Shown piece by piece: positions 24,365-42,614 of a stretch of 64,000 nucleotides of DNA. The translations under genes and the position numbers were made by a program. The DNA comes from Kaistia adipata DSM 17808 (GTDB taxonomy: Bacteria; Pseudomonadota; Alphaproteobacteria; Rhizobiales; Kaistiaceae). Below the pieces are notes generated by a model, which had not been told where the DNA came from, did no database searches, and was given only the letters and a program-made list of their open reading frames with translations. Position 1 is the stretch's first letter. Every line of letters begins with the position of its first letter. Location: assembly GCF_000423225.1 (NCBI RefSeq), contig NZ_KE383991.1, forward strand, positions 1,312,217 to 1,376,216, read 5' to 3'.

Positions 24365-25720
24365 TTACTTCGCGGCGAGGAAATCCGCCACGTCGAGCAG
24401 GATGAACTCGTTGTCGGCGGCCTTGCCGATCTCGCGACCGCCCGAGAACGGCAGGTTGTTGTCGTTCGCCACCATGATGTGGGTGTCGTCGACGCGCATC
24501 ACGTCCTCGATGGTGAAGAACGGGAAGGTGAAGACGCCCTTCAAGTCACGGTCGGCGGCGGTCTTGACGATCGCCTTGCCGTCGGGATCGGCGACGTTCA
24601 TCAGGTCGATCTGCGCGACGCGGCGGATGAAGCCGTCCTTGTCGACGCTGGCGGTATCGACCAGCACGATGTTCTTGACCTTGGCCGGCAGCGGGTAGCA
24701 GGCCGACTTGTCCTCGCCCTTGCATTCGAGGCTCGGATCGCCCTCGCCATTGTCGCGCTCGATCACCAGCGCGCGGGTGTCGTCGATGAAGTTGAAGTCG
24801 CCGATCGCGGTCGCGCCGTCGGCGAGACGGAAGCGGAAGCTGTCGCCGGTCCAGGCGCCCTTGCCGGTATCGAAGGTCATGACCCGCAGGAAGCCGCCTT
24901 CCGGCTTGCCGTCGGCGCCCAGCAGCGGTTTCTCCAGCATCGCCCAGAGCAGGTCGGTCTTCGGCTGCAGGGCCATGCCCTCATAGCCGCCGGAGCGCTG
25001 CACGCGGAAATCCTTGCCCGGCGCGGCCGGCACGGTGACGCCGGGGGAGTCCGGCCCGCGCAGCACTTCGCCGTCGAGCTCGGTCGCGTAGACGGCGAGC
25101 ACGCGGCCATCGAGCGTGGCGCGGATGATCGACGGGCCGAATTCCTCGCCGATCCAGACCTCGTCGCCGAGCACCTGGATGCTCTCGGGATCGAAGTCGG
25201 CGCCGGTCAGGTAGCGGCTCTCCGTGCCCTCATAGGCGATGCGGAAGGGCACCTTGTGGTCGGGATCCCTGAGGAACACCGACTCCATCCGCTCGACCTT
25301 GCCGGTCTGGAAGTCGGGCTTCATGCGGTGGAAGAACAGCAGCGCGTCGGGGCTGTTCGCCTTGCTGCCGAAGCCGTTGTCGGTCAGCGTGTAGAGGCTG
25401 CCGTCGGGGGCGCGGTTCATGGCGAAGCCGGACATGCCCTGCACGGGCTGGCCGAGGAAGGGCAGCGAGATGCCGGTCGGATGGCTGCCATAGGCGGCGC
25501 CGACGTCGCCCATCACGCTCATCGGCGCTTCATTGCGCGTCTTGCCCGTGAACTTGCCGGAGACGAAGGCATCGCGCGGCGCGTCGGCCGGCGGCGCGAT
25601 CATCGTCATGGCCGGGAGATAGGCATGCCCCGCCAGCTTGGCGGGGAAGGTCTCGGCCGCCACGGCCGGGCCGGCCAGGGCCACCACGGCCACGGCGGCG
25701 AGAAGGGAGCGCAAACGCAT
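24365..25720 (-). CDS. Exported esterase-like activity of phytase family protein
   Basis: 451 residues; ATG at 25720 with AAAGGA upstream. A Sec signal peptide covers residues 1-22 (MRLRSLLAAVAVVALAGPAVAA), so the protein is periplasmic or secreted. The mature part fits the phytase-like esterase domain, a beta-propeller with acidic Ca-type loops: GMSGFAMNRAPDGSLYTLTDNGFG, TGADFDPESIQVLGDEVWIGEEFGPSIIRA, YEGMALQPKTDLLWAMLEKP and DNNLPFSGG near the end. Members are annotated as phosphoesterases; activity is mostly untested. It is a single gene with its own terminator, 120 bp from the hydantoinase gene. Confidence 0.85.
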   Translation of the reverse strand: MRLRSLLAAVAVVALAGPAVAAETFPAKLAGHAYLPAMTMIAPPADAPRDAFVSGKFTGKTRNEAPMSVMGDVGAAYGSHPTGISLPFLGQPVQGMSGFAMNRAPDGSLYTLTDNGFGSKANSPDALLFFHRMKPDFQTGKVERMESVFLRDPDHKVPFRIAYEGTESRYLTGADFDPESIQVLGDEVWIGEEFGPSIIRATLDGRVLAVYATELDGEVLRGPDSPGVTVPAAPGKDFRVQRSGGYEGMALQPKTDLLWAMLEKPLLGADGKPEGGFLRVMTFDTGKGAWTGDSFRFRLADGATAIGDFNFIDDTRALVIERDNGEGDPSLECKGEDKSACYPLPAKVKNIVLVDTASVDKDGFIRRVAQIDLMNVADPDGKAIVKTAADRDLKGVFTFPFFTIEDVMRVDDTHIMVANDNNLPFSGGREIGKAADNEFILLDVADFLAAK

Positions 25721-25843
25721 CGGGACGTCCTTTCGGAGAGGAAAATGCCCGCTCCGCATAAGCGCCCGACGTGACGCTCGCGTCTCAGCCCCATGGCAGT
25801 TTGATGAACCGCCCGGTTGTGCCGGACCCGGACCGTCGCCGCC

Positions 25844-27268
25844 TCAGGGCCGCGCCGGTCTAGCCGGTCGAGGCCGTTCGCACCGCAGGAACTGCCCCGC
25901 CCCCGCCGAGCCGGAGAACGCCCCGTCATGCCAGACGACGGTGCCGCGCAGGATGGTCGTGATCGGCCGCCCGCGCAGCTCCATGCCCTCATAGGGCGTG
26001 TAGTCGACATTGTGGTGCAGCGCCTCGTTGGTGATCGTCCAGGAGACATCCGGATCCCAGATGGCGATGTCGGCGTCGGAGCCGACCGCGATCGTCCCCT
26101 TGCGCGGATAGAGCCCGTAGATCTTGGCCGGGTTGGTGGACGTCAGCGCCACGAAGCGGTTGATGTCGATCCGGCCGCCGAGCACGCCTTCCGAGAACAG
26201 GAGGGGCAGCCGCGTCTCCAGCCCCGGAATGCCGTTCGGGATGCACTGGAACGACGCGCATTCGCCGAACGCCTTCTTGCCGAGCGGGTCGTCATAGCGG
26301 AACGGCGCGTGGTCGGAGGAGAACACCTCGAACACGCCGGTCGCGAGCCCGTTCCAGATCGCCTCGTGATTGGCCTCGTCGCGCGGCGGCGGGCTGCAGA
26401 CGAACTTGGCGCCCTCGAAGCCGTCGCGATGCAGGTGCTTCTCGGTCAGGAACAGATATTGCGGGCAGGTTTCGGCGAAGACGCGATGGCCGCGCGCCTG
26501 CGCCCAGCGGATCTGCTCCGTCGCCTCGATGCCGGAGACGTGCACGATCAGGATCGGCACGTCGACGAGCTCGGCCAGCGACAGCGCCCGATGCGTCGCC
26601 TCGCGCTCGACAAGGGACGGCCGCGCCGTGGCATGGAAGCGGGGCGCGGTATGGCCGGCCGCTTCCAGCGCCTCGGTCAGCCAGGCGATGCAATCGGCGT
26701 TCTCGGCGTGGATCATCGTCATCGCGCCCTCGCGCCGCGCGGCCGCCAGGCATTCCAGGATCTGGCGGTCGTCGAGCTTGAGGTCGTCATAGGTCATGTA
26801 GATCTTGAACGAGGTGTAGCCTTCGTCGACGAGGGCCGGCAGCTCCTCGGCGATCACCGGCCGCGACGGGTCGGTGACGATCATGTGGAAGGCGTAGTCG
26901 ACGCAGGCGCGCCCCGCGGCGCGGCGGTGATAGTCGTCGACGGCGCCGCGCAGGCTTTCCCCCTTCACCTGCGCCGCGAAGGGGATCACCGTCGTGGTGC
27001 CGCCGCAGGCGGCCGAGCGGGTGCCGGTCTCGAAATCATCGGCCATGCGCAGTCCCGGCCCCATCGGCTGGTCGAGATGGCAATGGCCGTCGACACCGCC
27101 GGGCAGCACATATTGCCCTGTCGCGTCGATCTCCTTGTGCCCGTGCGGCAGAGCCTCGCCCAGCGCCACGATCCGCCCCTCGCGGATCGCGATGTCGCAG
27201 ACCACCGAGTCGGCGGCGGTGACCACCGTGCCGTTGCGGATGACGAGATCGAAGGGAAACTCGTTCAT
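25844..27268 (-). CDS. hydA: Dihydropyrimidinase / D-hydantoinase
   Basis: 474 residues, the usual length. It hydrolyses cyclic ureides (dihydropyrimidines, hydantoins, possibly other cyclic amides) to N-carbamoyl or ureido acids. All binuclear-zinc ligands are seen: His62 and His64 in GHCHLDQP, the carboxylatable Lys155 in TSFKIYMTYDD, His187 in MIHAEN, His243 in IVHVSG and Asp319 in SSDHAPF. Substrate loop TSTNPAKIYGLYPRKG is present. Contrast with the ligand-less PyrC-like protein at 11.4 kb. It is the last gene of the ten-gene importer/catabolic operon; the reaction is secure at family level, the true substrate is not. Confidence 0.93.
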   Translation of the reverse strand: MNEFPFDLVIRNGTVVTAADSVVCDIAIREGRIVALGEALPHGHKEIDATGQYVLPGGVDGHCHLDQPMGPGLRMADDFETGTRSAACGGTTTVIPFAAQVKGESLRGAVDDYHRRAAGRACVDYAFHMIVTDPSRPVIAEELPALVDEGYTSFKIYMTYDDLKLDDRQILECLAAARREGAMTMIHAENADCIAWLTEALEAAGHTAPRFHATARPSLVEREATHRALSLAELVDVPILIVHVSGIEATEQIRWAQARGHRVFAETCPQYLFLTEKHLHRDGFEGAKFVCSPPPRDEANHEAIWNGLATGVFEVFSSDHAPFRYDDPLGKKAFGECASFQCIPNGIPGLETRLPLLFSEGVLGGRIDINRFVALTSTNPAKIYGLYPRKGTIAVGSDADIAIWDPDVSWTITNEALHHNVDYTPYEGMELRGRPITTILRGTVVWHDGAFSGSAGAGQFLRCERPRPARPARP

Positions 27269-27289
27269 GACTGCGCCCCCTCCCGCGCC

Positions 27290-28024
27290 TCAGCGCAGGT
27301 CCCCGAAAAGACGGCCCCAGCCCTGGATGCGCGCCGTGTCGATGCCGGTCATCTGCAGGGCCTTCCAGACTGTCGCGCTGACGGAATCGTAGATCGGAAT
27401 GCCGGTCTCGCGTTCGAGCTGCTCGACCAGCGGCGCGCCGCGGAAATTGGTGCAGAGCACGATGATCGCTTCCGGCTTGTCGGCGGCGACCTCGCGGATC
27501 AGGCGCGTGATCGTCGCCTCGTCGAATTCGGCGAAGGAGAAATTGTCCTTCTCGCCCATGTGGCGCTCGGTCGTGACCGTGTGGCCGGCGGCGTCGTAGT
27601 TGGCGATGATCTGCTGCTGCACGTCGCCGATATACGGTGTCACCAGCCCCAGGCTGCGGACCTCGGTGCGATCGAGGATCTCGTTCAGGGCGAGCACGCT
27701 GGTCGTCGCCGGCGCGCCGGTTGCCTCGGTGATCTCGGCGCAGAGTCGCTGGTCGATCTCGAAGCCGCGCCATCCCGCCGCCGTGCCGGCCCAGGCGATC
27801 ACGTCCATATGTGCGTCGTTGAGGATGCAGGCCGCCTCGACGAGCGACGAGTTGGTGAACTGCGCCATCGCCTTCTCGCCGAGCGTGATCTCCTTGACGG
27901 TGAAGCGCTGGAAATGCGCCGTCACCTCCGGCAGCAGATCGTGCAGGATCGCGCCCATATAGGGCTCGAGGACGGTGTTGGACGACGGCGTCAGCATGCC
28001 GATCAGCGTGCGATTGAGTGCCAT
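27290..28024 (-). CDS. Asp/Glu racemase-superfamily enzyme (maleate isomerase / arylmalonate decarboxylase-like, one-cysteine type)
   Basis: 244 residues. Start MALNRTLIGMLTPSSNTVLEP, with the TPSSNT phosphate/carboxylate-binding-like turn typical of maleate cis-trans isomerase and arylmalonate decarboxylase. Members with racemase or isomerase action use two cysteines. Here the second is present (Cys191 in IIVLCTNFRG) but the first position reads AWAGTAAG, with Gly80-Thr81. A single C-terminal cysteine facing glycine is the arrangement of arylmalonate decarboxylase. The protein may therefore decarboxylate or protonate a malonate-like intermediate rather than isomerise. It lies 21 bp upstream of hydA in the operon. 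Confidence 0.82.
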   Translation of the reverse strand: MALNRTLIGMLTPSSNTVLEPYMGAILHDLLPEVTAHFQRFTVKEITLGEKAMAQFTNSSLVEAACILNDAHMDVIAWAGTAAGWRGFEIDQRLCAEITEATGAPATTSVLALNEILDRTEVRSLGLVTPYIGDVQQQIIANYDAAGHTVTTERHMGEKDNFSFAEFDEATITRLIREVAADKPEAIIVLCTNFRGAPLVEQLERETGIPIYDSVSATVWKALQMTGIDTARIQGWGRLFGDLR

Positions 28025-28077
28025 GGATGGCTCCAGCCTGAAAGGTCAAACAAGGAAAGGTCGGGGTTCCGGCCGGG

Positions 28078-28836
28078 CTACTCGCCGCGATAGTTCGCCG
28101 GCTTTCCTTCCAGGAAGGAGCCGATGCCCTCGTGCAGGTCGCGCGTGCCGAACATCAGCTGCCAGCGGCTCCGCTCCATGGCGATGCCGGCTTCCGAGGT
28201 GGTGTCGAGGCCGAGCCGGACGACTTCCTTGATCTGCTGCACGGTGATCGGCGGCTTCGTCGCGATCAACGCCGCGAGCTCGATCGCACGCGATGTCGCG
28301 TCGCCCTCGACGATCTCGCTGACCAGCCCCATGCGCCGCGCTTCGACGGCCGGGATCGGCGTCGCCGTCAGCAATGCATACATCGCGTTCTGACGCCCGA
28401 TGGCGCGCGGCAGGCGCTGCGTCGCGCCGCCGCCCGGCACGAAGCCGAGATTGACCTCCGGCTGGCAGAAGCGGGCATTCGCCGAGGCGATGACGAAGTC
28501 GCATTGCAGCACCAGCTCGCAGCCGCCGCCAAAGGCGTCGCCATTGACGGCCGCGATCACCGGCTTCGGCGACTTCCAGAGCGCATGGGTCGTGAAGGTC
28601 TGGATCGCGCCGGGGACGGTGCGGCCAAGCTGCTCCTTCAAGTCGGCGCCGACGGCGAAGACCGTGTCGTTGCCGGCGAGCACGATGGCGCGGATGCCCG
28701 GATCGGCGTTCAGCTCATCGACATATTGCTCGATCAACAGGCGGACCTCGGTGGTCAGCGCGTTGCGGACTTCGGGCCGGTTGAGCCGGATGACGGCGAC
28801 GCCCGCGACGGGCTTTTCCAGGAGAACGACCGACAT
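28078..28836 (-). CDS. Enoyl-CoA hydratase/isomerase (crotonase family)
   Basis: 252 residues; ATG at 28836 follows GGAAGGA. Crotonase fold with the oxyanion-hole segments (AVGADLKEQ and AFGGGCELVLQCD) and both catalytic glutamates of true hydratases, one in GGCELVL and one in CQPEVNLGF. C-terminal helices end EGIGSFLEGKPANYRGE. It would hydrate a 2-enoyl-CoA or act on a related CoA thioester. No acyl-CoA ligase or dehydrogenase is next to it, so how a CoA ester arises in this operon is unclear. It lies 54 bp upstream of the racemase-like gene. Confidence 0.9.
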   Translation of the reverse strand: MSVVLLEKPVAGVAVIRLNRPEVRNALTTEVRLLIEQYVDELNADPGIRAIVLAGNDTVFAVGADLKEQLGRTVPGAIQTFTTHALWKSPKPVIAAVNGDAFGGGCELVLQCDFVIASANARFCQPEVNLGFVPGGGATQRLPRAIGRQNAMYALLTATPIPAVEARRMGLVSEIVEGDATSRAIELAALIATKPPITVQQIKEVVRLGLDTTSEAGIAMERSRWQLMFGTRDLHEGIGSFLEGKPANYRGE

Positions 28837-28884
28837 GACGGTTCCTTCCAACAGGTTATGAACGAATGGGCGGGACGGTCGGCG

Positions 28885-29262
28885 TCAGGCCGCCGGCCGG
28901 TCGACCGCATGTTCGAGGAGGGCGGAAAGCGGGACGATCTCGAGCGTCGCCTCATTGGTCGCCGACAGGACCACGGGACAGGCATTCCCGGCCTGGTAGG
29001 CCTCGAACCACTTGGCCGCGATCACGCACCAGCGGTCGCCGGGGACGAGGCCGGGAAAGCGCAGATCCGGCCGGATCGTCGTCAGATCGTTGCCGACGCT
29101 CGCCTGAAACTCGATGAAGGCCGAGGTCATGATCGCGCAGATGGTGTGGCGAAGCGGATTTTCGGGGCCGGTAGTGCAGCAGCCATCGCGGAGATAGCCG
29201 GTCAGGGGATCCGTCGAGCAGAGGTCGAGCGGACCCCCGAGGACGTTGCGCTGTTCAGTCAT
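28885..29262 (-). CDS. DUF2237 protein
   Basis: 125 residues, soluble. The whole protein matches DUF2237: RNVLGGPLDLCSTDPLTGYL, DGCCTTGPENPLRHTICAIM, FIEFQASVGNDLTTIRPDL, FPGLVPGDRWCVIAAKWFEAY and ATNEATLEIVPLSALLEHA. Conserved cysteines (DLCST, DGCC, HTICAIM, RWCVIA) suggest metal binding or redox chemistry, but no function is established. The gene lies 23 bp from the amidase gene, co-oriented within the catabolic operon; this could give a first functional context. Confidence 0.88.
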   Translation of the reverse strand: MTEQRNVLGGPLDLCSTDPLTGYLRDGCCTTGPENPLRHTICAIMTSAFIEFQASVGNDLTTIRPDLRFPGLVPGDRWCVIAAKWFEAYQAGNACPVVLSATNEATLEIVPLSALLEHAVDRPAA

Positions 29263-29284
29263 GCGAAATCTCCATGAGCCGGCC

Positions 29285-30835
29285 TCACGACCGGGCGCGC
29301 CCGGACGGCGGCGTCGGGCAGGCGAAAAGATGGGTCTGGATCTGATGCGCCACGTTGAGGAGCAGCGCGTCCTGCATCGGCCGGGCGACCAGCAGCATGC
29401 CGACCGGCAGACCGTCGATCAGGCCGCAGGGAAGGCTGAGCGCCGGATGGCCGGTCAGGTTGGTCGCGCAATTGTTGTCATGCATCTGGAAGGCGAGCCG
29501 CTGGTGCTCGGCCGGCGGCAACGGTCCGGTCGGCAGACGATGCGGCAACATCGGGCAGGTCGGCATGACGAGGACGTCATGCTCCGCCAGCGCCGCGTCA
29601 TACTGGGCGCGCAGCACGCGCCGCAGCCGCTGCGCCAGCGCCAGGACGCGGCCCTTGCTCTCGGCGCGGAGGATGGTGCCGGCGATCAGCGACGCCTTCG
29701 CATTGAGCGGCAGGCGGGCGGCGCCGGTCTCGAGCGCCTCTCCGAACGCGCGGGCGAGTTCGCCGTCATAGACGCCGAGGTGATTGGCGCCCTGCGTGCC
29801 CTGCTCGAACACCGTCGCGAGGCCGCCCTCGCAGGAGATCGGCGCGTGGATATCCGTCGCCTGCTTGTGCAGCGGCACCGAGGCCGCGCCGACCTTCGCG
29901 CCGAGACCAGCAAGCGACAGGGCCGCCGCGCGGACCATCGCGTCGAGACGCGGGTCGGAACCCGCCCAGCCGAAGCCGTCGTCGACGATGCCGATCCGGA
30001 GCCCACCCAAGCCTTCGTCGAGCGTCTCGACGGCGGGCCCTTCCAGCGCCGGAACGCCGGCCTGGCGCGGATCGCTGTCGCTGTAGCCCGCGACCGCGTC
30101 GAGCAAACGGGCGACATCGCGCGCCGTCCGGGCCATCAGGCCGAGATGATCCATGCTGAACTCGGTCGCCACCGCGCCGGTATAGGGCACGAGGCCGAAG
30201 GTCGGCTTCAGCGCGGTGATGCCCGACCAAGCGGCCGGGTTGCGCACGGAACCGCCGAGATCGGTGCCGAGCGCCAGGTCCGCCTCGCCGGTGGCGAGCA
30301 GCACGCCGCAGCCGGACGAGGAACCGCCGGCCGAGCGCGTCTGGTCATAGGGGTTGAGCACCGCCCCGGTAACGGAGGTGAAGCTCGAACCGGAATAGCA
30401 GAGGTCCTCGCAGACGGCGGTGCCGACCAGCTCCGCGCCGGCGTCGAGCGCCCGCTCGACGGCAAGCGCGCTCCTCGCCGGCACGAAATCACGCAGGAAG
30501 TCGCCGCCGAGCGTCATCGGCACGCCGGCGACGGCGATCGAATCCTTGACCACCAGGCGCGCCCCGGCGAGCGGCCCGGCCAAGGTTCGCCGGTCCTCGG
30601 TGCGATACATCCAGGCATGGTGCTCGTCGGCGCCGCCGATGCGCTCGACGGTCCAGTCGACGGCCGGGACCGTCTCGGTCCCGAACACCACCTCGGCCAG
30701 GGCCTCGATGCGACCATAGGTGCGGCGGGAATTGCCGACCGCCATCTCGATGCCGGCGACGTCGTCGGCGCCGAGATGGAAGCGCTCGGCGACGCGCGCG
30801 ATCTCGTCGGCGTCGTTGTGCTTGGCTGCGGTCAT
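29285..30835 (-). CDS. Amidase-signature hydrolase
   Basis: 516 residues; ATG at 30835 overlaps the stop of the DUF1116 gene (ATGA), so translation is coupled. The Ser-cisSer-Lys triad of the amidase-signature family is complete: Lys97 in LVVKDSIAV, the Ser172-Ser174 run in AGGSSSGCG, and nucleophile Ser196 in GTDLGGSVRNPAAW. Family members hydrolyse amides, ureido acids (ureidomalonase, N-carbamoyl amino acids) and allophanate. With a hydantoinase in the same operon, the likely job is cleavage of the ring-opened ureido or amide product; the specific substrate is unknown. Confidence 0.9.
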   Translation of the reverse strand: MTAAKHNDADEIARVAERFHLGADDVAGIEMAVGNSRRTYGRIEALAEVVFGTETVPAVDWTVERIGGADEHHAWMYRTEDRRTLAGPLAGARLVVKDSIAVAGVPMTLGGDFLRDFVPARSALAVERALDAGAELVGTAVCEDLCYSGSSFTSVTGAVLNPYDQTRSAGGSSSGCGVLLATGEADLALGTDLGGSVRNPAAWSGITALKPTFGLVPYTGAVATEFSMDHLGLMARTARDVARLLDAVAGYSDSDPRQAGVPALEGPAVETLDEGLGGLRIGIVDDGFGWAGSDPRLDAMVRAAALSLAGLGAKVGAASVPLHKQATDIHAPISCEGGLATVFEQGTQGANHLGVYDGELARAFGEALETGAARLPLNAKASLIAGTILRAESKGRVLALAQRLRRVLRAQYDAALAEHDVLVMPTCPMLPHRLPTGPLPPAEHQRLAFQMHDNNCATNLTGHPALSLPCGLIDGLPVGMLLVARPMQDALLLNVAHQIQTHLFACPTPPSGRARS

Positions 30836-32097
30836 CGGGCCGCCGCCATAGCTTCGAGCGCGCGGCTCGCCTCGACGAACGGCTCGACCGGAATGCGGGT
30901 GATGCCCGCGCCGATGCGGCCATGGCCCGGCAGACGGTGCGACAGACCGTTGTTGATCATCGGCGCGATGCCGGTCTCGCGGACCCGGTGGACGTTGATG
31001 CCGATGGGACTGCCGCGATGTTCCTCGGCCGGGATGAGGAAGCGCGAGCTGGTGCCCGAGCAGATCCGGCGCATCTCCTCGACCATGTGGACGCCCTGCT
31101 CCACCGTGCCGCCGACGAAGGACATGATGGCGGGGGCGGCCGACATGGCGAAGGCGCCGAAGCCGGCCGTCTCGGAGATCATCGAGTCGCCCATGGTCGG
31201 GTTGACGTCCTCCATCTTGCCGCCGGGGATGAGCTTGGGCTCGCCGATCGGCGACGGGCACAGGAACCAGCGATCGCCGGTGCCGCTGACGCGGATGCCG
31301 AATTCGCGGCCGTTGCCGGACATGGTGGTGACAACAGGGCTGTCGGAAATGTCGGCGGCGGCCAGCGTCATCGCCTTGGCGGCCGAAATCGCGAAGGGCA
31401 GCGCGAAATGGCCATTGCCAGCCATGATGGCGACGGTCTTCGCCACGGCGTCGCGGTCCCGGCCGCTTGAGATCAGCGCCGGAGCCAGCCGAACGATCAG
31501 GCTGGCGGTGGTGGCGATCAAGCGGTTGTGGCAATCGTCGCCGCGGCGCAGGCCCTCCGCGACCATGCCGCCCAGCTCGATCGGATCGGTCGCCCGGATG
31601 GCGTCGTCGAGGACGCCGGCCATGTCGGTCGCCATCCAGCGCAGCCGCGCCAGCGTCTCGTCGTCATAGGAGCCGTAGCGGACGGCGCCGCCGGTGCCCT
31701 CGTTCAGCGGCGAGAACGTCGTGTGGCCGGCCGATTTCGCGACCACTACCGGCATGCTCGGCGTGATCACGCCCGCCATCGCGCCGAGCGCGCCGGCGTC
31801 GTGGCAGGGCAAAAGCTCCAGTTCGCCGGCGTCGAGGATCGCCTCGGCCTCGGCCACGTCCCTCGCCTCGCCCTCGAAGATCAGGCCACCGATCAGCGCG
31901 CCGCGCATCGGTCCCGGCACGTCCTCGAGGCGGATCGGCGGTCCGGCATGCAGGAAGCGGCGCGGGCCGACCTGGCGGGTGACGTCGCCGGCGGCGCAGA
32001 CGCCGACGAGATGCACCTGCGTCGTGTCGAGCGCGGCGACGGATTTGGCCGCGGCGGCCTCGACGGCCGGGAGCGAAGCTTGGATCGTGTCGGACAT
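30832..32097 (-). CDS. DUF1116 (YlbE/AllG-like) protein
   Basis: 421 residues; ATG at 32097 with AGGAACC upstream. The sequence closely follows the YlbE/DUF1116 pattern: LHAGPPIRLEDVPGPMRGA, EGEARDVAEAEAILDAGE, GAMAGVITPSMPVVV, LNEGTGGAVRYG, GMVAEGLRRGDDCHNR, NGREFGIRVSGTGDRWF and NPTMGDSMISETAGFGAFA. In E. coli the DUF1116 protein AllG works with FdrA/AllF and a DUF2877 protein/AllH as oxamate carbamoyltransferase in anaerobic allantoin use. Neither partner nor a carbamate kinase is in this window. That makes it an orphan member, perhaps acting on another carbamoyl or ureido substrate. Confidence 0.87.
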   Translation of the reverse strand: MSDTIQASLPAVEAAAAKSVAALDTTQVHLVGVCAAGDVTRQVGPRRFLHAGPPIRLEDVPGPMRGALIGGLIFEGEARDVAEAEAILDAGELELLPCHDAGALGAMAGVITPSMPVVVAKSAGHTTFSPLNEGTGGAVRYGSYDDETLARLRWMATDMAGVLDDAIRATDPIELGGMVAEGLRRGDDCHNRLIATTASLIVRLAPALISSGRDRDAVAKTVAIMAGNGHFALPFAISAAKAMTLAAADISDSPVVTTMSGNGREFGIRVSGTGDRWFLCPSPIGEPKLIPGGKMEDVNPTMGDSMISETAGFGAFAMSAAPAIMSFVGGTVEQGVHMVEEMRRICSGTSSRFLIPAEEHRGSPIGINVHRVRETGIAPMINNGLSHRLPGHGRIGAGITRIPVEPFVEASRALEAMAAAR

Positions 32098-32217
32098 CGT
32101 CTTGGTTCCTGCTGATCGATCGAGGCGGCGCACGAAGGGGCGCGCGCGGCCGGTCTTGAGCTTTGGACCGGGACGTTCAGCCCCGGCCGGGCCTGTCGCG
32201 GCGCGCACCTCCCCGCT

Positions 32218-32240
32218 CCGGTCCTGCGCGGCAGGACCGG
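32218..32240 (-). other. Strong intercistronic hairpin between importer and catabolic genes
   Basis: CCGGTCCTG (32218-32226) and CAGGACCGG (32232-32240) form a perfect 9-bp stem with a 5-base loop, 28 bp after the stop of the binding-protein gene. There is no T-run, so it more likely stabilises the 3' end of the importer mRNA or lowers read-through than terminates fully. Confidence 0.55.
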
Positions 32241-32268
32241 TCATGCGAGACGCACGTCGTGGATCCGG

Positions 32269-33348
32269 CTATTTCGGGATCGTCGTATCGATGCCCTTGA
32301 CCAGGAAGTTCATGCCCTTGATGGCGCCGTCGTCGAGCGACGTGCCGGCGGGCACGGCTTCCTTGTCCTCGTTCGAGGTGATCGGGCCGGTGAAGGGCTT
32401 GAAGGTGCCGGCGCCCATCTCGTCCTGACGCGCCAGGATCTGCGCCCGCTGCTCGTCCGACAGGTCCTTGCTCAGGCCGGCGACCGAGACGGCATTGTCG
32501 GCGATGCCGGCGAAGACGTCGTCGCCCTTGAAGTTGCCGGCCATCGCCTCCTCGACCTTCTGGATCATCACCGGGCCGAAGTTGAGCTGGCCGGCGCAGA
32601 GGTGCTTGGTCGGAGCGAACTTCGAATTGTCGCTATGGGTGACGGTGCCGTAGATGCCGAGCTGCTCGGCGGCGGCCATCGGGCCGGGCGTCCCCGGGAA
32701 GAGCGAGAAGACGACGTCGGTCCCCTGCGAGGCGAGCGATTCCGTTGACGCCTTCTCCATCGCCGGATCGAACCAGGAATTGAGCCAGATCACCTTGACC
32801 GGCTTCAGGTTGGCATTGGTGCTCTGCGCGCCCAGCACATAGGCGTTCATGACGTTGAGCACTTCGGGCAGCGGGAACGCGGCGATGACGCCGAGCGTCT
32901 CCGACTTGGTCACCATGCCGGCGGCCATGCCGCAGAGATAGGCCGCCTCGTAGTGGCGCGGCGTCAGCGTCGAGAAATTCGGCGCGTTCATGTAGCCGCC
33001 GATATGGACGACCGAAAGCTTCGGATAGCGCTTGGCCAGCTTCATGCCGTCCTGCTGGTAGCCGAAGGAGCCGAGCACCAGCATGTCGACGCCGTCGGCG
33101 GCCATCTTGTTCATGACGCGCGTCGCGTCCGGCCCCTCGCCGAGGCTGTTGACGAACTGGATCTCGACCTGGTCGCCGAACTTCTCGGCGATGGCGCGGC
33201 CGCCGCGATCAAGCTCGTAGGACCAGCCGAGCTCGCCGACCGGGTTGGGCAGCAGATAGCCGATCTTGAACGGATCGGCCTTGGCCGAGACGGTGAGCGC
33301 GACGCCCAGCGCAGCGGTGGTCAACGCTGTCCTAATCCAGTGACGCAT
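32269..33348 (-). CDS. BMP-family ABC transporter substrate-binding protein (nucleoside-type)
   Basis: 359 residues; ATG at 33348 directly after GGAGGAATCAAC. A cleaved signal peptide spans residues 1-24 (ALTVSAKA); no lipobox Cys, so it is a soluble periplasmic protein. The BMP/PnrA-like fold is recognised by IGYLLPNPVGELGWSYELDRG, VNSLGEGPDATRVMNKMA, DMLVLGSFGYQQDGMKLA, HIGGYMNAPNFSTLTPRHYEAAYLCGMAAGM and FSLFPGTPGPMAAA. BMP proteins deliver nucleosides, purines or related heterocycles to the cognate permeases. It is the fourth gene of the operon, behind the ATPase and permeases. Confidence 0.92.
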   Translation of the reverse strand: MRHWIRTALTTAALGVALTVSAKADPFKIGYLLPNPVGELGWSYELDRGGRAIAEKFGDQVEIQFVNSLGEGPDATRVMNKMAADGVDMLVLGSFGYQQDGMKLAKRYPKLSVVHIGGYMNAPNFSTLTPRHYEAAYLCGMAAGMVTKSETLGVIAAFPLPEVLNVMNAYVLGAQSTNANLKPVKVIWLNSWFDPAMEKASTESLASQGTDVVFSLFPGTPGPMAAAEQLGIYGTVTHSDNSKFAPTKHLCAGQLNFGPVMIQKVEEAMAGNFKGDDVFAGIADNAVSVAGLSKDLSDEQRAQILARQDEMGAGTFKPFTGPITSNEDKEAVPAGTSLDDGAIKGMNFLVKGIDTTIPK

Positions 33349-33397
33349 GTTGATTCCTCCCCAAATATGCGTTTCTCGCCAACAGTCCGGCGGCCCC

Positions 33398-34321
33398 TCA
33401 GCTCGCCGGTCGATAGCTTTCCCCAAGTGCTGCCGGCGCATTCAGTCGAACCCGGACCTTGTCGGCCGAGATCGCCACCAGCACGACGATGGTCAGGACG
33501 TAAGGCAGGCAAGTCATGATCTGGGCCGGAATGCCGATGCCCATCGCCTGCAGCGCCAACCCGAGCAGCGACACCGCGCCGAAGAGATAGGCGCCGACCG
33601 CCACCCGGCCCGGCCGCCAGGTGCCGAACACCACCAGCGCCACCGCGATCCAGCCGCGGCCGGCGATCATGTCCTGCGACCAGAGCGGGGTCAGGACCGT
33701 CGAGGCATAGGCGCCGGCAAAGCCCGCCATGACGCCGCCGAACAGGATCGCCAGGAAGCGGACGCCGACCGGCCGCATGCCGAGCGCATGGGCGGTGTTC
33801 GGATTCTCGCCGATCACCCGCAGCGTCAGGCCCGCCTTGGTCCGGTACAGGAACCACGCGACCAGCGCCGTCGCGGCGATGGCGGCGTAGACGACGACGT
33901 CCTGCGTGAACAGGATCCGCCCGAGGACCGGGATGTCCGAAAGGCCCGGCAGCGCGATCTTGCCGAGACCGGGAAGCGTCATGCCCTCGAAGCTGCGCCC
34001 GAGCAGGCCCGACAGGCCGAGGCCCAGAATGCCGACGGCGAGGCCGGCCGCGACCTGGTTGGCCATGAAGCCGAGCACCAGCACGGCGAACACGGTCGCA
34101 AGCAGCGCCCCGCTCAGCCCGCCGGCGACGAAGCCGACGAGATGCGACCCTGTCTGCAGCGTCACCATGAAGGCGATGGCGGCGGAAAGCGCCATCATGC
34201 CTTCGACGCTCAGGTTGAGGACGCCGGATTTCTCGACCACGAGCTCGCCGAGCGCCGCCAGCAACAACGGCGTCGCGGTCGCGAACGCGCCGGCCAGAAC
34301 GAAGATGAGCGCGTCCATCAT
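33398..34321 (-). CDS. ABC transporter permease (BPD_transp_2, nucleoside-type)
   Basis: 307-residue membrane protein with about nine hydrophobic segments. Family features: KSGVLNLSVEGMMALSAAIAF near residue 31 and GENPNTAHALGMRPVGVRFLAILFGGVMAGFAGAYAS in the middle, the ATPase-contact loop. Second membrane subunit of the BMP-type importer (YufQ/NupC-like). The ATG overlaps the TGA of the preceding permease gene, so the two are translationally coupled. Confidence 0.92.
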   Translation of the reverse strand: MMDALIFVLAGAFATATPLLLAALGELVVEKSGVLNLSVEGMMALSAAIAFMVTLQTGSHLVGFVAGGLSGALLATVFAVLVLGFMANQVAAGLAVGILGLGLSGLLGRSFEGMTLPGLGKIALPGLSDIPVLGRILFTQDVVVYAAIAATALVAWFLYRTKAGLTLRVIGENPNTAHALGMRPVGVRFLAILFGGVMAGFAGAYASTVLTPLWSQDMIAGRGWIAVALVVFGTWRPGRVAVGAYLFGAVSLLGLALQAMGIGIPAQIMTCLPYVLTIVVLVAISADKVRVRLNAPAALGESYRPAS

Positions 34322-35415
34322 GCCGCCCCCCGCAGGCGTGTGTCTTGCGGAACGCGGCGAACCTCGTGCCGGACAAAGAAGTAGGAGGCGAGGTAGAAGA
34401 CCAGCAGCAGCCCCTGGAACACCACCGGTGCCGATGCCGGGATGCCAGCGCTGACCAGCGCGATGTCGCCGCCGACATAGACCAGCGCCATGAACAGGCC
34501 GGCGAAGAAGATGCCGACCGGATGCAGGCCGCCCAGGAAGGCGACGATGATCGCCGCATAGCCATAGCCCGGCGACAGGATCGGCTGCAGCTTGCCGATC
34601 GGCCCGGCGATCTCGCCGACGCCGGCAAGGCCGGCGGCGGCGCCGCCGATCAGGAGCGACATCCAGATGGCGCGGCGCTGCGAGAAGCCGGCATAGCGCG
34701 CGGCATCCGACGCCACGCCGCCGACCATCAGGCGAAACGCCGCGAAGCTCCGGGTGACGAAGATCCAGCAGCCGATCGTCACCACCAGCGTGATGATGAC
34801 GGAGAGATTGGCGCGCACGCCGTCGCCGCCGAATGTCGGGTAGAGGCCAGCATCCGGGAACATGACGGATTGCGGGAAATTATAGCCGGACGGATCGCGC
34901 AGCGGCCCCGTCAGCAGGTAGTAGAGCACCTGCTTGGCGATCTCGGTCAGCATCAGCGTCACGATGATCTCGCTGGCGTTGAAGCTGGCCTTCAGGTAGG
35001 CGGCGATCCCTGCCCAGGCCATGCCGGCCAGCGCGCCGACCACGATCATGCCGGGCAGCATCCAGGCGGATTCGCTGTCGGACCAGAAGATCGGCAGCAG
35101 GCTGGCGCAGATCGCGCCGATGATCAGCTGCCCCTCGGCGCCGATGTTCCAGACGCGGGCCCGGAAACCTATCGCCAGCCCCTGCGCGATCAGGATCAGC
35201 GGGCTCGCCTTGATCAGCACCTCGCCGAGATTGTAGCTCGACGAAAGCGGCTCGATGAAGAAGCTGTAGAGCACGACGCCGGGATCGGCCCCGAGAGCCG
35301 AGAACATGACGACCATGGTGATGATCGACAGGACGACCGTCACCAGCGGCACGGCGAGCAGCGCCAGGGGCGACGTCTCGGTGCGCGACAGGACGGTGAA
35401 GCCGAGGAAGCTCAT
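34318..35415 (-). CDS. ABC transporter permease (BPD_transp_2, nucleoside-type)
   Basis: 365-residue permease with an N-terminal helix and about nine further membrane segments. Recognised by GEVLIKASPLILIAQGLAIG, ARVWNIGAEGQLIIGAI, FNASEIIVTLMLTEIA, and YAGFSQRRAIWMSLLIGGAAAGLAG. First membrane subunit of the importer (YufP/NupB-like). Start and stop both overlap the neighbouring importer genes by 4 bp. Confidence 0.92.
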   Translation of the reverse strand: MSFLGFTVLSRTETSPLALLAVPLVTVVLSIITMVVMFSALGADPGVVLYSFFIEPLSSSYNLGEVLIKASPLILIAQGLAIGFRARVWNIGAEGQLIIGAICASLLPIFWSDSESAWMLPGMIVVGALAGMAWAGIAAYLKASFNASEIIVTLMLTEIAKQVLYYLLTGPLRDPSGYNFPQSVMFPDAGLYPTFGGDGVRANLSVIITLVVTIGCWIFVTRSFAAFRLMVGGVASDAARYAGFSQRRAIWMSLLIGGAAAGLAGVGEIAGPIGKLQPILSPGYGYAAIIVAFLGGLHPVGIFFAGLFMALVYVGGDIALVSAGIPASAPVVFQGLLLVFYLASYFFVRHEVRRVPQDTRLRGAA

Positions 35416-36986
35416 TGCGCCGCCTCCGCCGCCATTTCGTCGGATGCCTCGAACAGGCCGACCATCATCTGGCCGATCCGCTCCGGCGTCGTCGCCCGGG
35501 TCCGCACGGGCTGCGACATGCGCCCCTCGAACATGACGGCCATGCGATCAGAAATCTCGAACAGCTCTTCCAGCTCCTCGGAGATCAGCAGGATCGAGAC
35601 GCCCTCGTCGCGGAGCGCGATCAGCTTCTGGCGCACCATCGCGGCGGCGCCGATGTCGATGCCCCAGGTCGGCTGCGCGACCACCATCACCTTCGGCCGC
35701 AGCATCATCTCGCGGCCGACGATGAACTTCTGCAGATTGCCGCCGGAGAGGCTCGACGCGTTGGCGCCGGAGCCGCCGCAGCGCACATCCATCTCGCGAA
35801 TGCAGCGCTCGGCATGGTCGTCTCGCACCCGCTTGCGGATGAACCCGCGCGAAACCATGCCAAGGCGATGGGCGGTCAAGAGCATGTTGTCGGTGAGCGA
35901 CAGTCCCGGCGCCGCGCCGCGTCCGAGCCGCTCCTCCGGAATGAAGGAGAGCCCCTGCCGGCGGCGCTCGGCCGGGCCGAGGTGGCCGACGGCGTCGCCG
36001 AGGATCTCGATTTCCCCCCTGCGCGCGACGGGCAAGGTTTCCTCGCCGGAGAGATAGCGCGACAGCGCCTGCTGGCCGTTGCCCGAAACGCCGGCGATAC
36101 CCAGGATCTCGCCATGCCGGACTTCCAGATTGACGGCCTGGAGGTTGACGGCATGGGGATCGCGCTCGCGCGTCGACAGCCCGCTCACCCGCAGCGCGAC
36201 TTTCCCGTCCGGCCTGGCCTCGGCATGGGCCGAGCGCGGAATGTCCCGGCCAACCATCATCTTGGCGAGGCTGTGCGAGGTTTCCTCGCGCGGATCGACC
36301 TGCCCCGTCACCTGGCCATGGCGGAGGATCGTCGCCGAATGGCAGAGCGCGCGGATCTCCTCCAGCTTGTGGCTGATATAGAGGATGGCGATGCCCCTGT
36401 CGGACAGCATCCGCAGCGTCACGAACAGCTTCTCGACCGCCTGCGGCGTCAGCACCGAGGTCGGCTCGTCGAGGATGAGCAGCGAGGGCTCCTGCAGCAG
36501 GCAGCGGACGAGTTCCACGCGCTGCCGCTCGCCGACCGACAATTTGTAGACCAGCGCATCCGGCTCGACCGCCAGCCCGAAGGCCTCGGACGCCGCGCGG
36601 ATCCGCTGCGACAACTCGCGAATGTCGCCCGGCACCGTGAAGGAGATGTTCTCGGCGACCGTGATCGTCTCGAACAGCGAAAAATGCTGGAACACCATGC
36701 CGATGCCGAGCGCGCGGGCGCGTGCCGGGCTGGTGATCTCGGTCGGTTGGCCCTTCCAGTAGATCGTGCCGGCATTGGGCTGGGTCACCCCGAAGATCAT
36801 CTTCATCAGGGTCGACTTGCCGGCGCCGTTCTCGCCGAGGACGGCGTGGATCTCACCGGGACGGATGTCGATGTTGACCTTGTCGTTGGCGACCAGGGAT
36901 CCGTAGTTCTTGCTGATATTCTCAAGCCTGAGCAGGCTCGCCGATGGCACACCGGGTACGGGGGTGCTCCCGCTGGCCATCAGCAT
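35412..36986 (-). CDS. ABC transporter ATP-binding protein with two ABC domains (nucleoside-type)
   Basis: 524 residues, two fused ABC domains like RbsA/NupA. First domain: Walker A GENGAGKSTLMK, signature LSVGERQRVELVRCL, Walker B LLILDEPTSVLT. Second domain: degenerate Walker A (GVSGNGQQALSRYLSG), signature LSGGNLQKFIVGREM, Walker B VMVVAQPTWGID. The degenerate second site is normal for this subfamily. It energises import of the ligand held by the BMP protein. First gene of the operon; start at 36986, an in-frame ATG two codons later is possible. The promoter must lie in the 351-bp gap before the divergent LysR gene. Confidence 0.93.
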   Translation of the reverse strand: MLMASGSTPVPGVPSASLLRLENISKNYGSLVANDKVNIDIRPGEIHAVLGENGAGKSTLMKMIFGVTQPNAGTIYWKGQPTEITSPARARALGIGMVFQHFSLFETITVAENISFTVPGDIRELSQRIRAASEAFGLAVEPDALVYKLSVGERQRVELVRCLLQEPSLLILDEPTSVLTPQAVEKLFVTLRMLSDRGIAILYISHKLEEIRALCHSATILRHGQVTGQVDPREETSHSLAKMMVGRDIPRSAHAEARPDGKVALRVSGLSTRERDPHAVNLQAVNLEVRHGEILGIAGVSGNGQQALSRYLSGEETLPVARRGEIEILGDAVGHLGPAERRRQGLSFIPEERLGRGAAPGLSLTDNMLLTAHRLGMVSRGFIRKRVRDDHAERCIREMDVRCGGSGANASSLSGGNLQKFIVGREMMLRPKVMVVAQPTWGIDIGAAAMVRQKLIALRDEGVSILLISEELEELFEISDRMAVMFEGRMSQPVRTRATTPERIGQMMVGLFEASDEMAAEAAQ

Positions 36987-37337
36987 GAGGCCGGCCCCGC
37001 CTGGCGACGGTAAGACCGAACTCCTGTCAACAACACCGCGTCAAAGCGGTCGCGAACCGCCGCGCCGGCGCGACGCCACAGACTTGCGACAGTTTCCGTA
37101 GCGGAATTATCCGCGCCGCCGGTATTCGTAATACGATAGTATTGGTGCGATACTGCATGCCCATGCGGGCACGCCTTCCCGATCGCACAATTGCTTGTGC
37201 CCAGCCGTGTATCCACGGACTCTCCTCCGCAGGTGCCTTAAGGGTGCCTTCTTTTCTTATTGAGAAGGATTATAAGCAGGGTTAGGCTCCAAGATAGATT
37301 ATTTTGATGGACCAATCGTTCGGGATCTTGGACGCCC
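36987..37337. promoter_or_regulatory. Palindrome-rich divergent control region of the catabolic operon and its LysR regulator
   Basis: 351 bp, unusually AT-rich toward the LysR gene. It holds alternating arms GTATT-cgt-AATAC-gata-GTATT (37122-37143), then GATAC at 37149; an inverted repeat GCACAA-TTGC-TTGTGC (37185-37200); CCTTCT/AGAAGG (37247-37268); and an 8-bp pair TCCAAGAT (37288-37295) / ATCTTGGA (37325-37332) ending six bases before the LysR start. The GTATT/AATAC array is the best candidate for the LysR recognition and activation sites. No open frame with coding character is visible. Confidence 0.6.
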
Positions 37338-38285
37338 ATGTCGTACCCCTATGAACTGAAGGACATCAGCTGCTTCCTCTGGATTGCACGCGCAGGTAGC
37401 ATTTCCCGCGCCGCGACGACGTACAGCGTCCCCAAGGCGACGCTCAGCCACCACCTGCGCCGGCTCGAGGATGCGCTGCAGGTCGAGCTGTTCGTCCGCA
37501 AGGCGAAGGGGCTGGAGCTGACCGACGCCGGCAAGGAATATCTCGACAATTGCTCGGCGATCTTCGACTCGTGCGAGAACGCCGCGAGCGCCGCCCAGCG
37601 CGCCCATTCGACCATCAGCGGCCGCATCCGGATCGTCGCCAGCACGGCCTTCGGCACGTCGATCATCGGCGCCGCGGCGAGCTATTTCGCGACCGCCAAC
37701 CCGCATATCGACTTCGACCTGCAGATGTATCCGGATGACAAGATCATCGCCGGCCAGTTCGATTTCGACTGCATGATCTTCGTCGGCGAGCCGCCGGCAT
37801 CCAGCCTGCTACGGCGGAAAATGGGCGACGTTTCCTTCGGTCTCTACGCCAGCCCGCGCTTTGTCGAGGCGCATGGCATGCCGGCCTCGCTGGACGACAT
37901 CAACCGCTCGAGCGGCGTCGTCTACATGCGCAACGGCATGCCCGAGCGCTGGGCGCTGCGCAACCAGCGCAACCTCGTCCACCTGGAGCCGCTGGCGAAA
38001 TTCAACGTCAACGAATACTGGCTGGCGAAATACTTTACGGTCGAGGGCCTGGTGATCGGCTACCTGCCGGACTTCTTCGTGAAATACGAGGTCGAGCAGG
38101 GCGCGCTCGTCCCCCTGATGCCGCAATGGCGCTCCGACGACACGCCGGTCTACGTCATCTATCCGGCGCAGCGGCATCGGAATCCGCGCGTCATGAAACT
38201 GGTCGACGCAATGTGCAACCGGTTCGAGGATTTCGTCCGGTCGCCGATCTATTCGGTCACGCGGATCGACTACGGCCAGGGCTGA
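37338..38285 (+). CDS. LysR-family regulator of the importer/catabolic operon
   Basis: 315 residues. N-terminal winged helix: DISCFLWIARAGSISRAATTYSVPKATLSHHLRRLEDALQ region (residues 9-47); effector domain follows (IRIVASTAFGTSIIGAAASYF, VEGLVIGYLPDFFVKYEVEQG). It is divergent from the ABC ATPase gene, the usual layout for a LysR regulator and its target. It also lies between that operon and the convergent Rieske cluster, so it may control both. The effector is presumably the substrate or an intermediate. The ATG at 37338 has no clear ribosome site. Confidence 0.92.
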   Translation: MSYPYELKDISCFLWIARAGSISRAATTYSVPKATLSHHLRRLEDALQVELFVRKAKGLELTDAGKEYLDNCSAIFDSCENAASAAQRAHSTISGRIRIVASTAFGTSIIGAAASYFATANPHIDFDLQMYPDDKIIAGQFDFDCMIFVGEPPASSLLRRKMGDVSFGLYASPRFVEAHGMPASLDDINRSSGVVYMRNGMPERWALRNQRNLVHLEPLAKFNVNEYWLAKYFTVEGLVIGYLPDFFVKYEVEQGALVPLMPQWRSDDTPVYVIYPAQRHRNPRVMKLVDAMCNRFEDFVRSPIYSVTRIDYGQG

Positions 38286-38310
38286 CAGGATCCGGAAAAG
38301 CAACAAGGCG

Positions 38311-38345
38311 CCCGGCCAGCGTTCGGAAATCCCGAACGCCGGCGA
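38311..38345. other. Hairpin between convergent LysR and 151-residue gene
   Basis: GCGTTCGG (38319-38326) and CCGAACGC (38332-38339) form a perfect 8-bp stem, extendable by CCGGC/CCGGCG outside. There is no T-run; it may stop transcription from both sides only weakly. Confidence 0.5.
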
Positions 38346-38381
38346 GACGCCTCGCGCACGAAGGGGCCTCGCTGGCCCCGA

Positions 38382-38837
38382 TCAGTGATGGTGCGCGTGC
38401 TCGCCCGGCAACCGCTCGAACACGTCCGTGCCCTTGTTGATCCAGCGAACCCCGTCATCGGTCGCGACGCTGCCCTCGAGGCCGACGGCGCCGATATAGG
38501 TGACCATGTACCAGACCAGTTCGGCGGCAAACATCGAGGGATGCTGGCGCGGATTGCGGATGCCGACGCGCTTGCCCCAGGCCGTCAGCGCCGTCGCCAT
38601 GTCGATCCGGTAGCCATAGAGTTCGTCGGGCTCATCGACCGGGGTGAAGGTGATCGTCAATCCCGGCGCCTCCTGCCATATCTCGACGCCATGGAAGCGC
38701 ATGTCCGGCCAGAACTGCCGCTCGCGCAGATGTTCTTCCTTGTCGTGCCCGCCATGACGAACCGTCCGGTATTTGCGGGTCAGGATGGTGGCGATGTCCG
38801 TCCGGACGGCTTCGTCAAAGGCATCGACGGTCTGCAT
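38382..38837 (-). CDS. Unknown protein with His-rich C-terminus, linked to Rieske oxygenase
   Basis: 151 residues, soluble, no signal peptide. I do not recognise the family. Seen: an N-terminal helix (AFDEAVRTDIATILTRKY), a charged segment with HGGHDKEEHLRERQFW, then EIWQEAPGLTITFTP, RIDMATALTAWGKRVG, PSMFAAELVWYMVTYIG, and the end EHAHHH. His and acidic residues could bind metal. It is last in the minus-strand run Rieske oxygenase, ferredoxin, reductase, unknown, 65 bp behind the reductase, so it is probably co-expressed and might be a small effector, isomerase or accessory factor of that system. Confidence 0.65.
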   Translation of the reverse strand: MQTVDAFDEAVRTDIATILTRKYRTVRHGGHDKEEHLRERQFWPDMRFHGVEIWQEAPGLTITFTPVDEPDELYGYRIDMATALTAWGKRVGIRNPRQHPSMFAAELVWYMVTYIGAVGLEGSVATDDGVRWINKGTDVFERLPGEHAHHH

Positions 38838-38902
38838 GGCTCGGCTCTCGTGACTGAACTTTCGAATGACGGAACACCGCCCGCGGCGGCGCGGCGACGG
38901 CT

Positions 38903-40123: not shown

Positions 40124-40248
40124 TGCGCCCACGCCAGTTGGAGGTGGATCGGGTTCGAAAGGCCGCGACCGGATGTCGACCGGGCCGGCGGGTGGCGAGG
40201 CTCCGACGAACGGAGCCGCGCCCCTCCGGCCCGGCGTCGATGCCGGCG

Positions 40249-40446
40249 TCAGCCCTCCACCAGCTTCAGCGCCAGGATCGGGCAGGACGTCACCGCCTGC
40301 CGCACCCGCGCGCGGATCTCGCCGTCCTCCGGGATCGGCTCGGCGACGTGCAGGTAGAGATCGTCGTCGACGTCGAACACCTCGGGCGCAATGCCCATGC
40401 AGACGCCGTTTCCATCGCAAGTCTGTCGGTTGACGATGATCTTCAT
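40249..40446 (-). CDS. Small [3Fe-4S]-type ferredoxin
   Basis: 65 residues; ATG at 40446 after GCGGAGGAACTC. Three cysteines are seen, Cys10 and Cys16 (CDGNGVC, with Gly where the second Cys of a 4Fe-4S motif would be) and Cys55 in SCPILAL. This is the [3Fe-4S] pattern of ferredoxins that serve cytochromes P450 and some ring-hydroxylating oxygenases, not a Rieske or plant-type ferredoxin. The C-terminal half is acidic. Encoded between reductase and oxygenase, so it is their electron carrier. Confidence 0.9.
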   Translation of the reverse strand: MKIIVNRQTCDGNGVCMGIAPEVFDVDDDLYLHVAEPIPEDGEIRARVRQAVTSCPILALKLVEG

Positions 40447-40507
40447 GAGTTCCTCCGCGATTTTTTTCTGATTGGTTCGGGCCGGCCGTCCGGCCGGACC
40501 CGCTTGC

Positions 40508-42477: not shown

Positions 42478-42614
42478 ACAATCCGTTTGCATCGGATGAA
42501 CGGGGGTATACCGATCGCTTCGGAGCTTGGCAAGGCCGGGATGAAAACTTCTTGCACGAGCCTGTGAAGAACTTTTTCCGCCCGGCCCCATGCCGTCGCG
42601 TCGCGCTCGGATCC

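Follow-up and report, generated by a model that had tools for sequence, protein, structure and literature searches.

In the soil bacterium Kaistia adipata DSM 17808, a stretch of 64,000 nucleotides on contig NZ_KE383991.1 (the window) carries a cluster of 14 catabolic genes and one LysR regulator gene between positions 25844 and 41782. Judged from its sequence, the cluster would take up an N-heterocycle resembling a nucleobase (a pteridine, a purine or the like) and break it down with the help of oxygen, a prediction that we hold with moderate confidence. A preliminary description had placed ten importer and catabolic genes at 25844-36986 and proposed the stepwise, hydrolytic breakdown of a cyclic ureide. 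The ten genes stand, but the conserved unit is longer and includes a Rieske oxygenase module that had been overlooked. The earlier interpretation is therefore only partly supported: its complete importer and its hydrolases, among them a dihydropyrimidinase-family enzyme, hold, and the purely hydrolytic route is incomplete because the Rieske, ferredoxin, reductase and orphan genes belong to the unit.

Gene content and conservation of the cluster

The ten minus-strand open reading frames at 25844-36986 are all open, and each passes the curated Pfam cut-off for a domain that matches its assigned name. A complete BMP-type ABC importer is formed by an ATPase with two ATP-binding stretches (35412-36986; ABC_tran), permease 1 (perm1, 34318-35415) and permease 2 (33398-34321), both with BPD_transp_2, and a solute-binding protein (32269-33348; Bmp). 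It is followed by an AllG-family protein, formerly DUF1116 (30832-32097; AllG), an amidase-signature hydrolase (29285-30835; Amidase), a DUF2237 protein (28885-29262), a crotonase of the enoyl-CoA hydratase family (28078-28836; ECH_1), a racemase-superfamily enzyme (27290-28024; Amdase and Asp_Glu_race) and an amidohydrolase of the dihydropyrimidinase/D-hydantoinase family (25844-27268; Amidohydro_1). The spacing from the importer to the dihydropyrimidinase gene, with three 4-nucleotide overlaps, gaps of 21-53 nucleotides and a single 171-nucleotide gap between bmp and allG, fits one unit. For bmp (33348), allG (32097) and the crotonase gene (28836), the likely starts, an ATG with a plausible ribosome site judged by eye, make the genes shorter than their longest open reading frames. 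These ten genes and the divergent LysR gene (37338-38285, plus strand; HTH_1 and LysR_substrate) are confirmed as real and correctly named.

The LysR gene diverges from the importer operon across 351 nucleotides, and a gap of 96 nucleotides flanks its other side. Beyond it, at 38382-41782, four further minus-strand genes encode an orphan protein of 151 residues (38382-38837), an FAD-dependent ferredoxin reductase (38903-40123; Pyr_redox_2 and Reductase_C), a Fer4-type ferredoxin of 65 residues (40249-40446; Fer4_13, Fer4_15 and Fer4_19) and a Rieske oxygenase alpha subunit (40508-41782; Rieske and Ring_hydroxyl_A) with both the Rieske and the mononuclear-iron motifs.

Clusters of this type were found in six genomes of three genera: the window, Kaistia granuli (L045, with which G003 is counted as the same cluster), Devosia limi (L046) and three genomes of one other genus (G862, G1064 and G983). 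All six keep the Rieske, ferredoxin, reductase and orphan genes together with those for AllG, the amidase, DUF2237 and the racemase-superfamily enzyme. Kaistia granuli retains 15 of 15 genes at 84-98% identity, depending on the gene, and Devosia limi 14 of 15 at 51-84%, with the Rieske module still attached, at the opposite end. The three genomes of the other genus share ten core genes (Rieske module, LysR, AllG, amidase, DUF2237, crotonase and racemase-superfamily gene) at 56-91%. Across the other five clusters, the LysR gene is 65-98% identical and the ferredoxin 84-94%. The dihydropyrimidinase gene occurs in five of the six clusters. Leaving out the importer and the dihydropyrimidinase of one genus, the latter at 59-61%, the shared genes are 51-91% identical in two other genera. 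Since the gene set recurs in these genera, it is not a chance grouping, and the co-occurrence that the preliminary description had proposed to look for in other genomes is conserved.

In all three genomes of the other genus, the same strand continues with genes for a deaminase-family amidohydrolase, a xanthine-dehydrogenase-type enzyme, a second BMP importer and an 8-oxoguanine-deaminase-family protein; in G1064 and G983, the dihydropyrimidinase gene stands after them. In G862, the structure nearest to the amidohydrolase is a methylthioadenosine/S-adenosylhomocysteine deaminase, and the 8-oxoguanine-deaminase-family copy lies over the NCBIfam PRK08203 cut-off (540 vs 532 bits). The 2Fe-2S open reading frame of the xanthine-dehydrogenase-type enzyme was recognised by eye in G1064.

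Exact peptide patterns, which reach close relatives only, gave two loci over 84,980 GTDB species genomes. Window-type AllG, defined by at least 71% identity, was also followed in overlapping whole-genome draws. Besides the own genome, it was found in G003 among 199 relatives, in G862 in a phylum draw of 398, in G003 and G862 in an order draw of 397, and in three genomes of one genus in a family draw of 247 around G862. A class draw of 385 genomes held none besides the own, the best other match being 45%. Close copies on plasmids were rejected, as every one of the 193 plasmid records of AllG is below 60% identity and the orphan protein has no match there. The orphan protein also lacks any Pfam or NCBIfam match and occurs in 2 of 199 genomes, one being the own genome. 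In every one of the six clusters, it ends with three or four consecutive histidines.

Predicted steps and substrate class

The proposed sequence of steps would begin with the BMP-type ABC importer, which may bring in a planar heterocyclic base. The solute-binding protein is nearest to AtzT and to 3s99, solved with guanine and with a purine respectively. According to PMC6834077, AtzT retained its guanine through purification. On a printed alignment with positions counted by hand, the window protein keeps the guanine contacts Ser97, Phe98, Glu165 and Trp194, has Trp in place of Tyr45 and differs at three further contacts. This mixed pattern may favour a flat heterocycle as the ligand, though probably not guanine itself.

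Drawing on the ferredoxin reductase and the ferredoxin encoded beside it, the Rieske oxygenase would then oxygenate the base, and the dihydropyrimidinase-family enzyme would open a cyclic-ureide ring. The latter enzyme is well over the cut-off of NCBIfam TIGR02033 for D-hydantoinase/dihydropyrimidinase (575.8 vs 393.25 bits). Its nearest solved relative is the D-hydantoinase 1yny, and a motif search and alignment to that structure found the metal ligands (HxH, Lys, two His and Asp) and the substrate residues Tyr, Ser and Asn, whose roles we assume to be those usual in the family. The cyclic ureide that the preliminary description proposed as substrate is likewise putative.

Next, the amidase may free ammonia from an amide. 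The preliminary description had amidase-signature enzymes cut ureido or amide products; the nearest solved structure is amidase 3a1k, presumably the nitrile-pathway amidase of Rhodococcus N-771 and no ureido hydrolase. The Lys and Ser motifs of the amidase are present, and catalytic motifs were likewise found by motif search in the dihydropyrimidinase, the Rieske protein and the crotonase, the last with both glutamate motifs; each motif is read in the sense usual for its family. AllG, without AllF and AllH, would act on the ureido or carbamoyl part. For DUF2237, the solved homologues 3ush, 4ioh and 2lq3 bear no functional name.

The remaining acid would be processed by an arylmalonate-decarboxylase-like enzyme, together with the crotonase where present. 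The racemase-superfamily protein had been called a one-cysteine enzyme; it holds three cysteines, of which C191 alone aligns with a catalytic position. C191, G80-T81 and Y131 align with Cys188, Gly74-Thr75 and Tyr126 of arylmalonate decarboxylase, in which Cys188 is the single catalytic cysteine. The residue after this aligned set is Ala in the window enzyme vs Ser in arylmalonate decarboxylase. The residue pattern is conserved across the six clusters. The protein passes Pfam Amdase (78.3 vs 25.9 bits) and stays under the NCBIfam arylmal_decarb cut-off (74.5 vs 225 bits). By its residue pattern, it resembles arylmalonate decarboxylase, and a cofactor-free decarboxylation would be the predicted activity. 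A maleate isomerase or two-cysteine racemase was rejected, the position aligned with the first cysteine of 2xec not being cysteine. Four annotated relatives on plasmids, 51-57% identical, stand in varied contexts that gave no hint on the substrate, and nothing usable on the gene context of arylmalonate decarboxylase was found in the open-access literature.

The related clusters also have genes for xanthine-dehydrogenase-type enzymes and guanine-type deaminases, and for this reason a fused pyrimidinedione, of pteridine or purine type, is the preferred candidate within the proposed substrate class. The window cluster has no gene for a ring-cleaving catechol dioxygenase, which would speak against a benzene ring in the substrate. 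A further-reaching and doubtful proposal is that the cluster encodes a new aerobic route whose substrates, pteridines or purine analogues, would be fused pyrimidinediones. In such a route, the Rieske enzyme would replace uricase- or dehydrogenase-type first steps, a stand-alone AllG would handle carbamoyl or amide groups outside AllFGH, and the arylmalonate-decarboxylase-type enzyme and DUF2237 would gain a natural pathway.

No pathway matching the cluster was found in the open-access literature, in agreement with the preliminary description, nor was anything found there on DUF1116 with a hydantoinase. In the parts of that literature covered, no link between DUF1116 and a Rieske enzyme was found, and titles and abstracts gave no pterin breakdown pathway of this kind. 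The reductive pyrimidine pathway shares a dihydropyrimidinase-family enzyme with the cluster but differs in its dihydropyrimidine dehydrogenase, which is absent from the cluster, the part of the genome examined for it. Precedent for chemistry of this kind comes from the breakdown of lumichrome (riboflavin): in PMC12746152, a fused heterocycle is attacked in succession by hydrolysis of its pyrimidine ring, by a xanthine-oxidase-type enzyme and by a Rieske dioxygenase. The Nocardioides simplex lumichrome operon reported there has pyrimidine-ring hydrolysis and a Rieske enzyme in common with the window cluster, and a xanthine-oxidase-type enzyme in common with the clusters of the second genus. 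In contrast, its alpha/beta Rieske enzyme, P450, thiamin-dependent decarboxylase and catechol (extradiol) dioxygenase are not among the Pfam matches of the window cluster. Vitamin B6, NAD and riboflavin are the only cofactors for which PMC12746152 names well-characterised routes of catabolism. Should the substrate prove to be a pteridine or modified base, the cluster would supply genes for the breakdown of a cofactor-type ring. It also offers testable partners for AllG without AllF and AllH, for DUF2237, for the 151-residue orphan protein and for the arylmalonate-decarboxylase-like enzyme.

Several findings weigh against the dismantling of a nucleobase-like heterocycle, and the cut-off dependence of the AllG neighbourhood statistics given below belongs with them. 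The closest relatives of the Rieske protein are glycine betaine and carnitine monooxygenases, not heterocycle ring dioxygenases. In the window BMP protein, other residues stand at the AtzT contacts Asn169, Asn218 and Asn220, with a gap beside 218. The BMP protein of the other genus (G862) is only 26% identical to that of the window and has other pocket residues; because of this distance, the differing pockets and the changed guanine contacts, the two importers may carry different compounds. The dihydropyrimidinase has no orthologue in G862 (best match 40%), the crotonase is missing from the Devosia cluster, and no gene for a CoA ligase turned up in the window cluster. Furthermore, the set is rare, window-type AllG being carried by 2 of 14 genomes of the own genus.

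The kinship of the Rieske protein leaves room for two other explanations. The first is that the substrate is a nucleobase carrying methyl groups or another modification. The Rieske enzyme would then be an N-demethylase, and the other enzymes would handle the resulting xanthine- or uracil-like ring. Some of the carnitine/betaine monooxygenase-type relatives are presumably N-demethylases, the demethylase 4qup stands further down the list of 38 structure matches, and the other genus has guanine-type deaminase genes. N2,N2-dimethylguanine hydrolases have recently been described as natural enzymes (PMC13054789). We nevertheless regard this explanation as unlikely: no enzyme for methylated bases could be identified, the window cluster shows no gene for handling formaldehyde, and none of the 38 structure matches is named as a caffeine demethylase, an enzyme type for which structures have been solved.

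The second explanation supposes two unrelated neighbours, namely an ordinary hydantoin or pyrimidine operon and an independent Rieske operon for betaine-type N-demethylation, adjoining by chance. It can draw on the same nearness to glycine betaine and carnitine monooxygenases and on the LysR gene, which with its flanking gaps (96 and 351 nucleotides) parts the two blocks in the window. Against this, each of the six clusters, spread over three genera, contains both blocks, the Devosia cluster having its Rieske block at the opposite end. A partnership of AllG with Rieske and amidase genes is seen in distant AllG lineages too (L039, L041, L042, Paracoccus aminovorans L136 and Ruegeria conchae L140). 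We regard a chance adjacency as quite improbable. Glycine betaine monooxygenase GbcA itself was rejected as an identity of the Rieske protein (132.5 vs a cut-off of 670 bits).

AllG without its usual partners

In the preliminary description, the family went by the name DUF1116. Pfam now names it 'AllG, oxamate carbamoyltransferase subunit', and the window protein scores 223 bits, with 3clq as a solved homologue. According to PMC11326118, AllG is a subunit of the Escherichia coli oxamate transcarbamylase AllFGH. AllF and AllH were searched for in five of the genomes, the Devosia genome being left out. In each of them, E. coli AllF matched at 24-26% and across no more than residues 117-292 of 555 (E 4e-8 to 3e-6), the match being presumably a succinyl-CoA-synthetase-type protein, and no AllF lies inside the cluster. 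AllH was found in none of the five genomes, and only E. coli was positive among 14 control genomes. Membership in AllFGH was therefore rejected: AllG is present, yet AllH and full-length AllF are absent from all five.

Compared with E. coli AllFGH and AllK, the window system shares an AllG-family protein and a place in nitrogen-compound catabolism. Across all AllG groups, 21 alignment columns pass the sharing limits, including G, D, H and R of GDxxHxR. The window system differs in lacking AllH, full-length AllF and an AllK beside the cluster, and in adding Rieske, amidase, DUF2237, decarboxylase-like and dihydropyrimidinase genes. In 13 columns, the residue is fixed in 33 of 33 AllF-linked AllGs and replaced in all six window-type proteins; six more columns are replaced in some. 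An AllG tree of 72 rows, with one short row dropped, placed the six window-type AllGs in a single clade (100/100), whose branch is long (1.52). The Rieske-linked L039, L041, L042, L136 and L140 form another, distant group, where the program warns that long branches (L136 and L039) may join falsely, and L154, L155, L159, L160 and L162 fall in a third. Three AllGs on the sister branch of the window clade (L144, L145 and L149) apparently stand alone with no AllF nearby; their surroundings, seen as starts of open reading frames only, looked uninformative.

The surroundings of 60 AllG loci outside the own genome were scored with profiles: 21 from the relatives draw (E limit 1e-20), 29 from the class draw (1e-60) and 10 from the phylum draw (1e-80). 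Relatives among them are not independent, and 16 of the stretches fall short of 15 kb. AllF lies near 31 loci, and 29 are AllF-less. A Rieske match of at least 200 bits occurs in 10 of the 29 AllF-less stretches vs 0 of 31 with AllF (Fisher p = 0.00027), in 8/27 vs 0/31 without the two window-type loci (p = 0.0012) and in 6/25 vs 0/31 when two seed loci are left out as well (p = 0.005). The 200-bit cut-off was chosen after the scores had been seen, and some of the seeds of the Rieske profile came from the scored loci themselves. Counting weak matches of 93-120 bits in the AllF loci L095, L151 and L152, the figures become 10/29 vs 3/31 (p = 0.028), and 8/27 vs 3/31 without the window-type loci (p = 0.09). 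A same-strand Rieske gene within 5 kb was found in 5/29 vs 0/31 at every cut-off tried. Neither the amidase (6/29 vs 7/31, no difference) nor the xanthine-dehydrogenase-type gene (4/29 vs 1/31, p = 0.19, not significant) separates the two sets. Among the 29 AllF-less loci, 16 lack both a Rieske gene and a xanthine-dehydrogenase-type gene. The statistics are fragile and depend on the cut-off, and a partnership of AllG with Rieske enzymes outside the window clade is suggestive.

An oxalurate-branch variant of allantoin breakdown, in which the dihydropyrimidinase would make oxalurate from parabanate, AllG would split oxalurate and the amidase would hydrolyse oxamate, agrees with the oxamate transcarbamylase membership of AllG (PMC11326118), with a title cited in PMC3364942 by which parabanic acid induces the enzyme, and with HpxZ-annotated genes beside AllF-less AllG in Azospirillum and Caballeronia, but is very unlikely given the lack of AllH and full-length AllF in the five genomes searched, a carbamate kinase gene in 0 of 29 AllF-less stretches vs 23 of 31 with AllF, and a Rieske module, decarboxylase-like enzyme, crotonase and DUF2237 that it leaves unexplained.

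Plasmid relatives provide picked examples and no count (six of 60 rows in one match list). In Paracoccus aminovorans (L136), a divergent LysR gene is followed by genes for a Rieske enzyme, a reductase, two NAD enzymes, DUF1116, a VOC protein, an amidase and an ABC transporter. The row of Ruegeria conchae (L140) reads aspartoacylase-family, aldehyde dehydrogenase, Rieske, two hypothetical proteins, DUF1116 and amidase. Both resemble the window cluster in pairing Rieske, DUF1116 without AllF nearby, and amidase; they differ in their distant AllG lineage, to which the long-branch warning applies, and in that the annotation of the stretches shown lists neither a BMP importer nor DUF2237 nor a dihydropyrimidinase. 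Plasmid pSR8 of Aminobacter sp. SR38 has an FdrA set with a BMP importer, in the order FdrA, DUF1116, ring-opening amidohydrolase, carbamate kinase, amidohydrolase, BMP importer and DUF2877. It shares AllG with a BMP importer and a ring-opening hydrolase, and differs in having AllF, AllH and AllK and no Rieske gene in the 21 kb shown. Xanthine-dehydrogenase-type genes accompany DUF1116, HpxZ and an amidase in Azospirillum and Caballeronia, and DUF1116 in Pacificitalea. On a Rhodococcus ruber plasmid (L138, 1-10185), two DUF1116 genes flank a formate dehydrogenase set; malate synthase genes also lie beside DUF1116, and neither of the partner gene types does.

Regulatory sites and cluster edges

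A simple consensus scan of 25500-42500 revealed no sigma-70-type promoter, and the sole minus-strand terminator-like site in the scan is inside perm1. Between the LysR gene and the importer, a palindrome, TTCCGTAGCGGAA, lies at 37094-37106, with a second candidate at 37254. The search for LysR sites found these candidates not to be common to three other clusters examined; the palindrome is a possible regulator site. At the cluster edge, 620 bases past the Rieske gene, stands a tRNA-Glu gene (42403-42477), which together with the patchy presence in the genus (2/14 genomes) could be the mark of an integration site. At the other edge, the dihydropyrimidinase gene is followed on the same strand by a gene for a phytase-like esterase domain protein (24365-25759).

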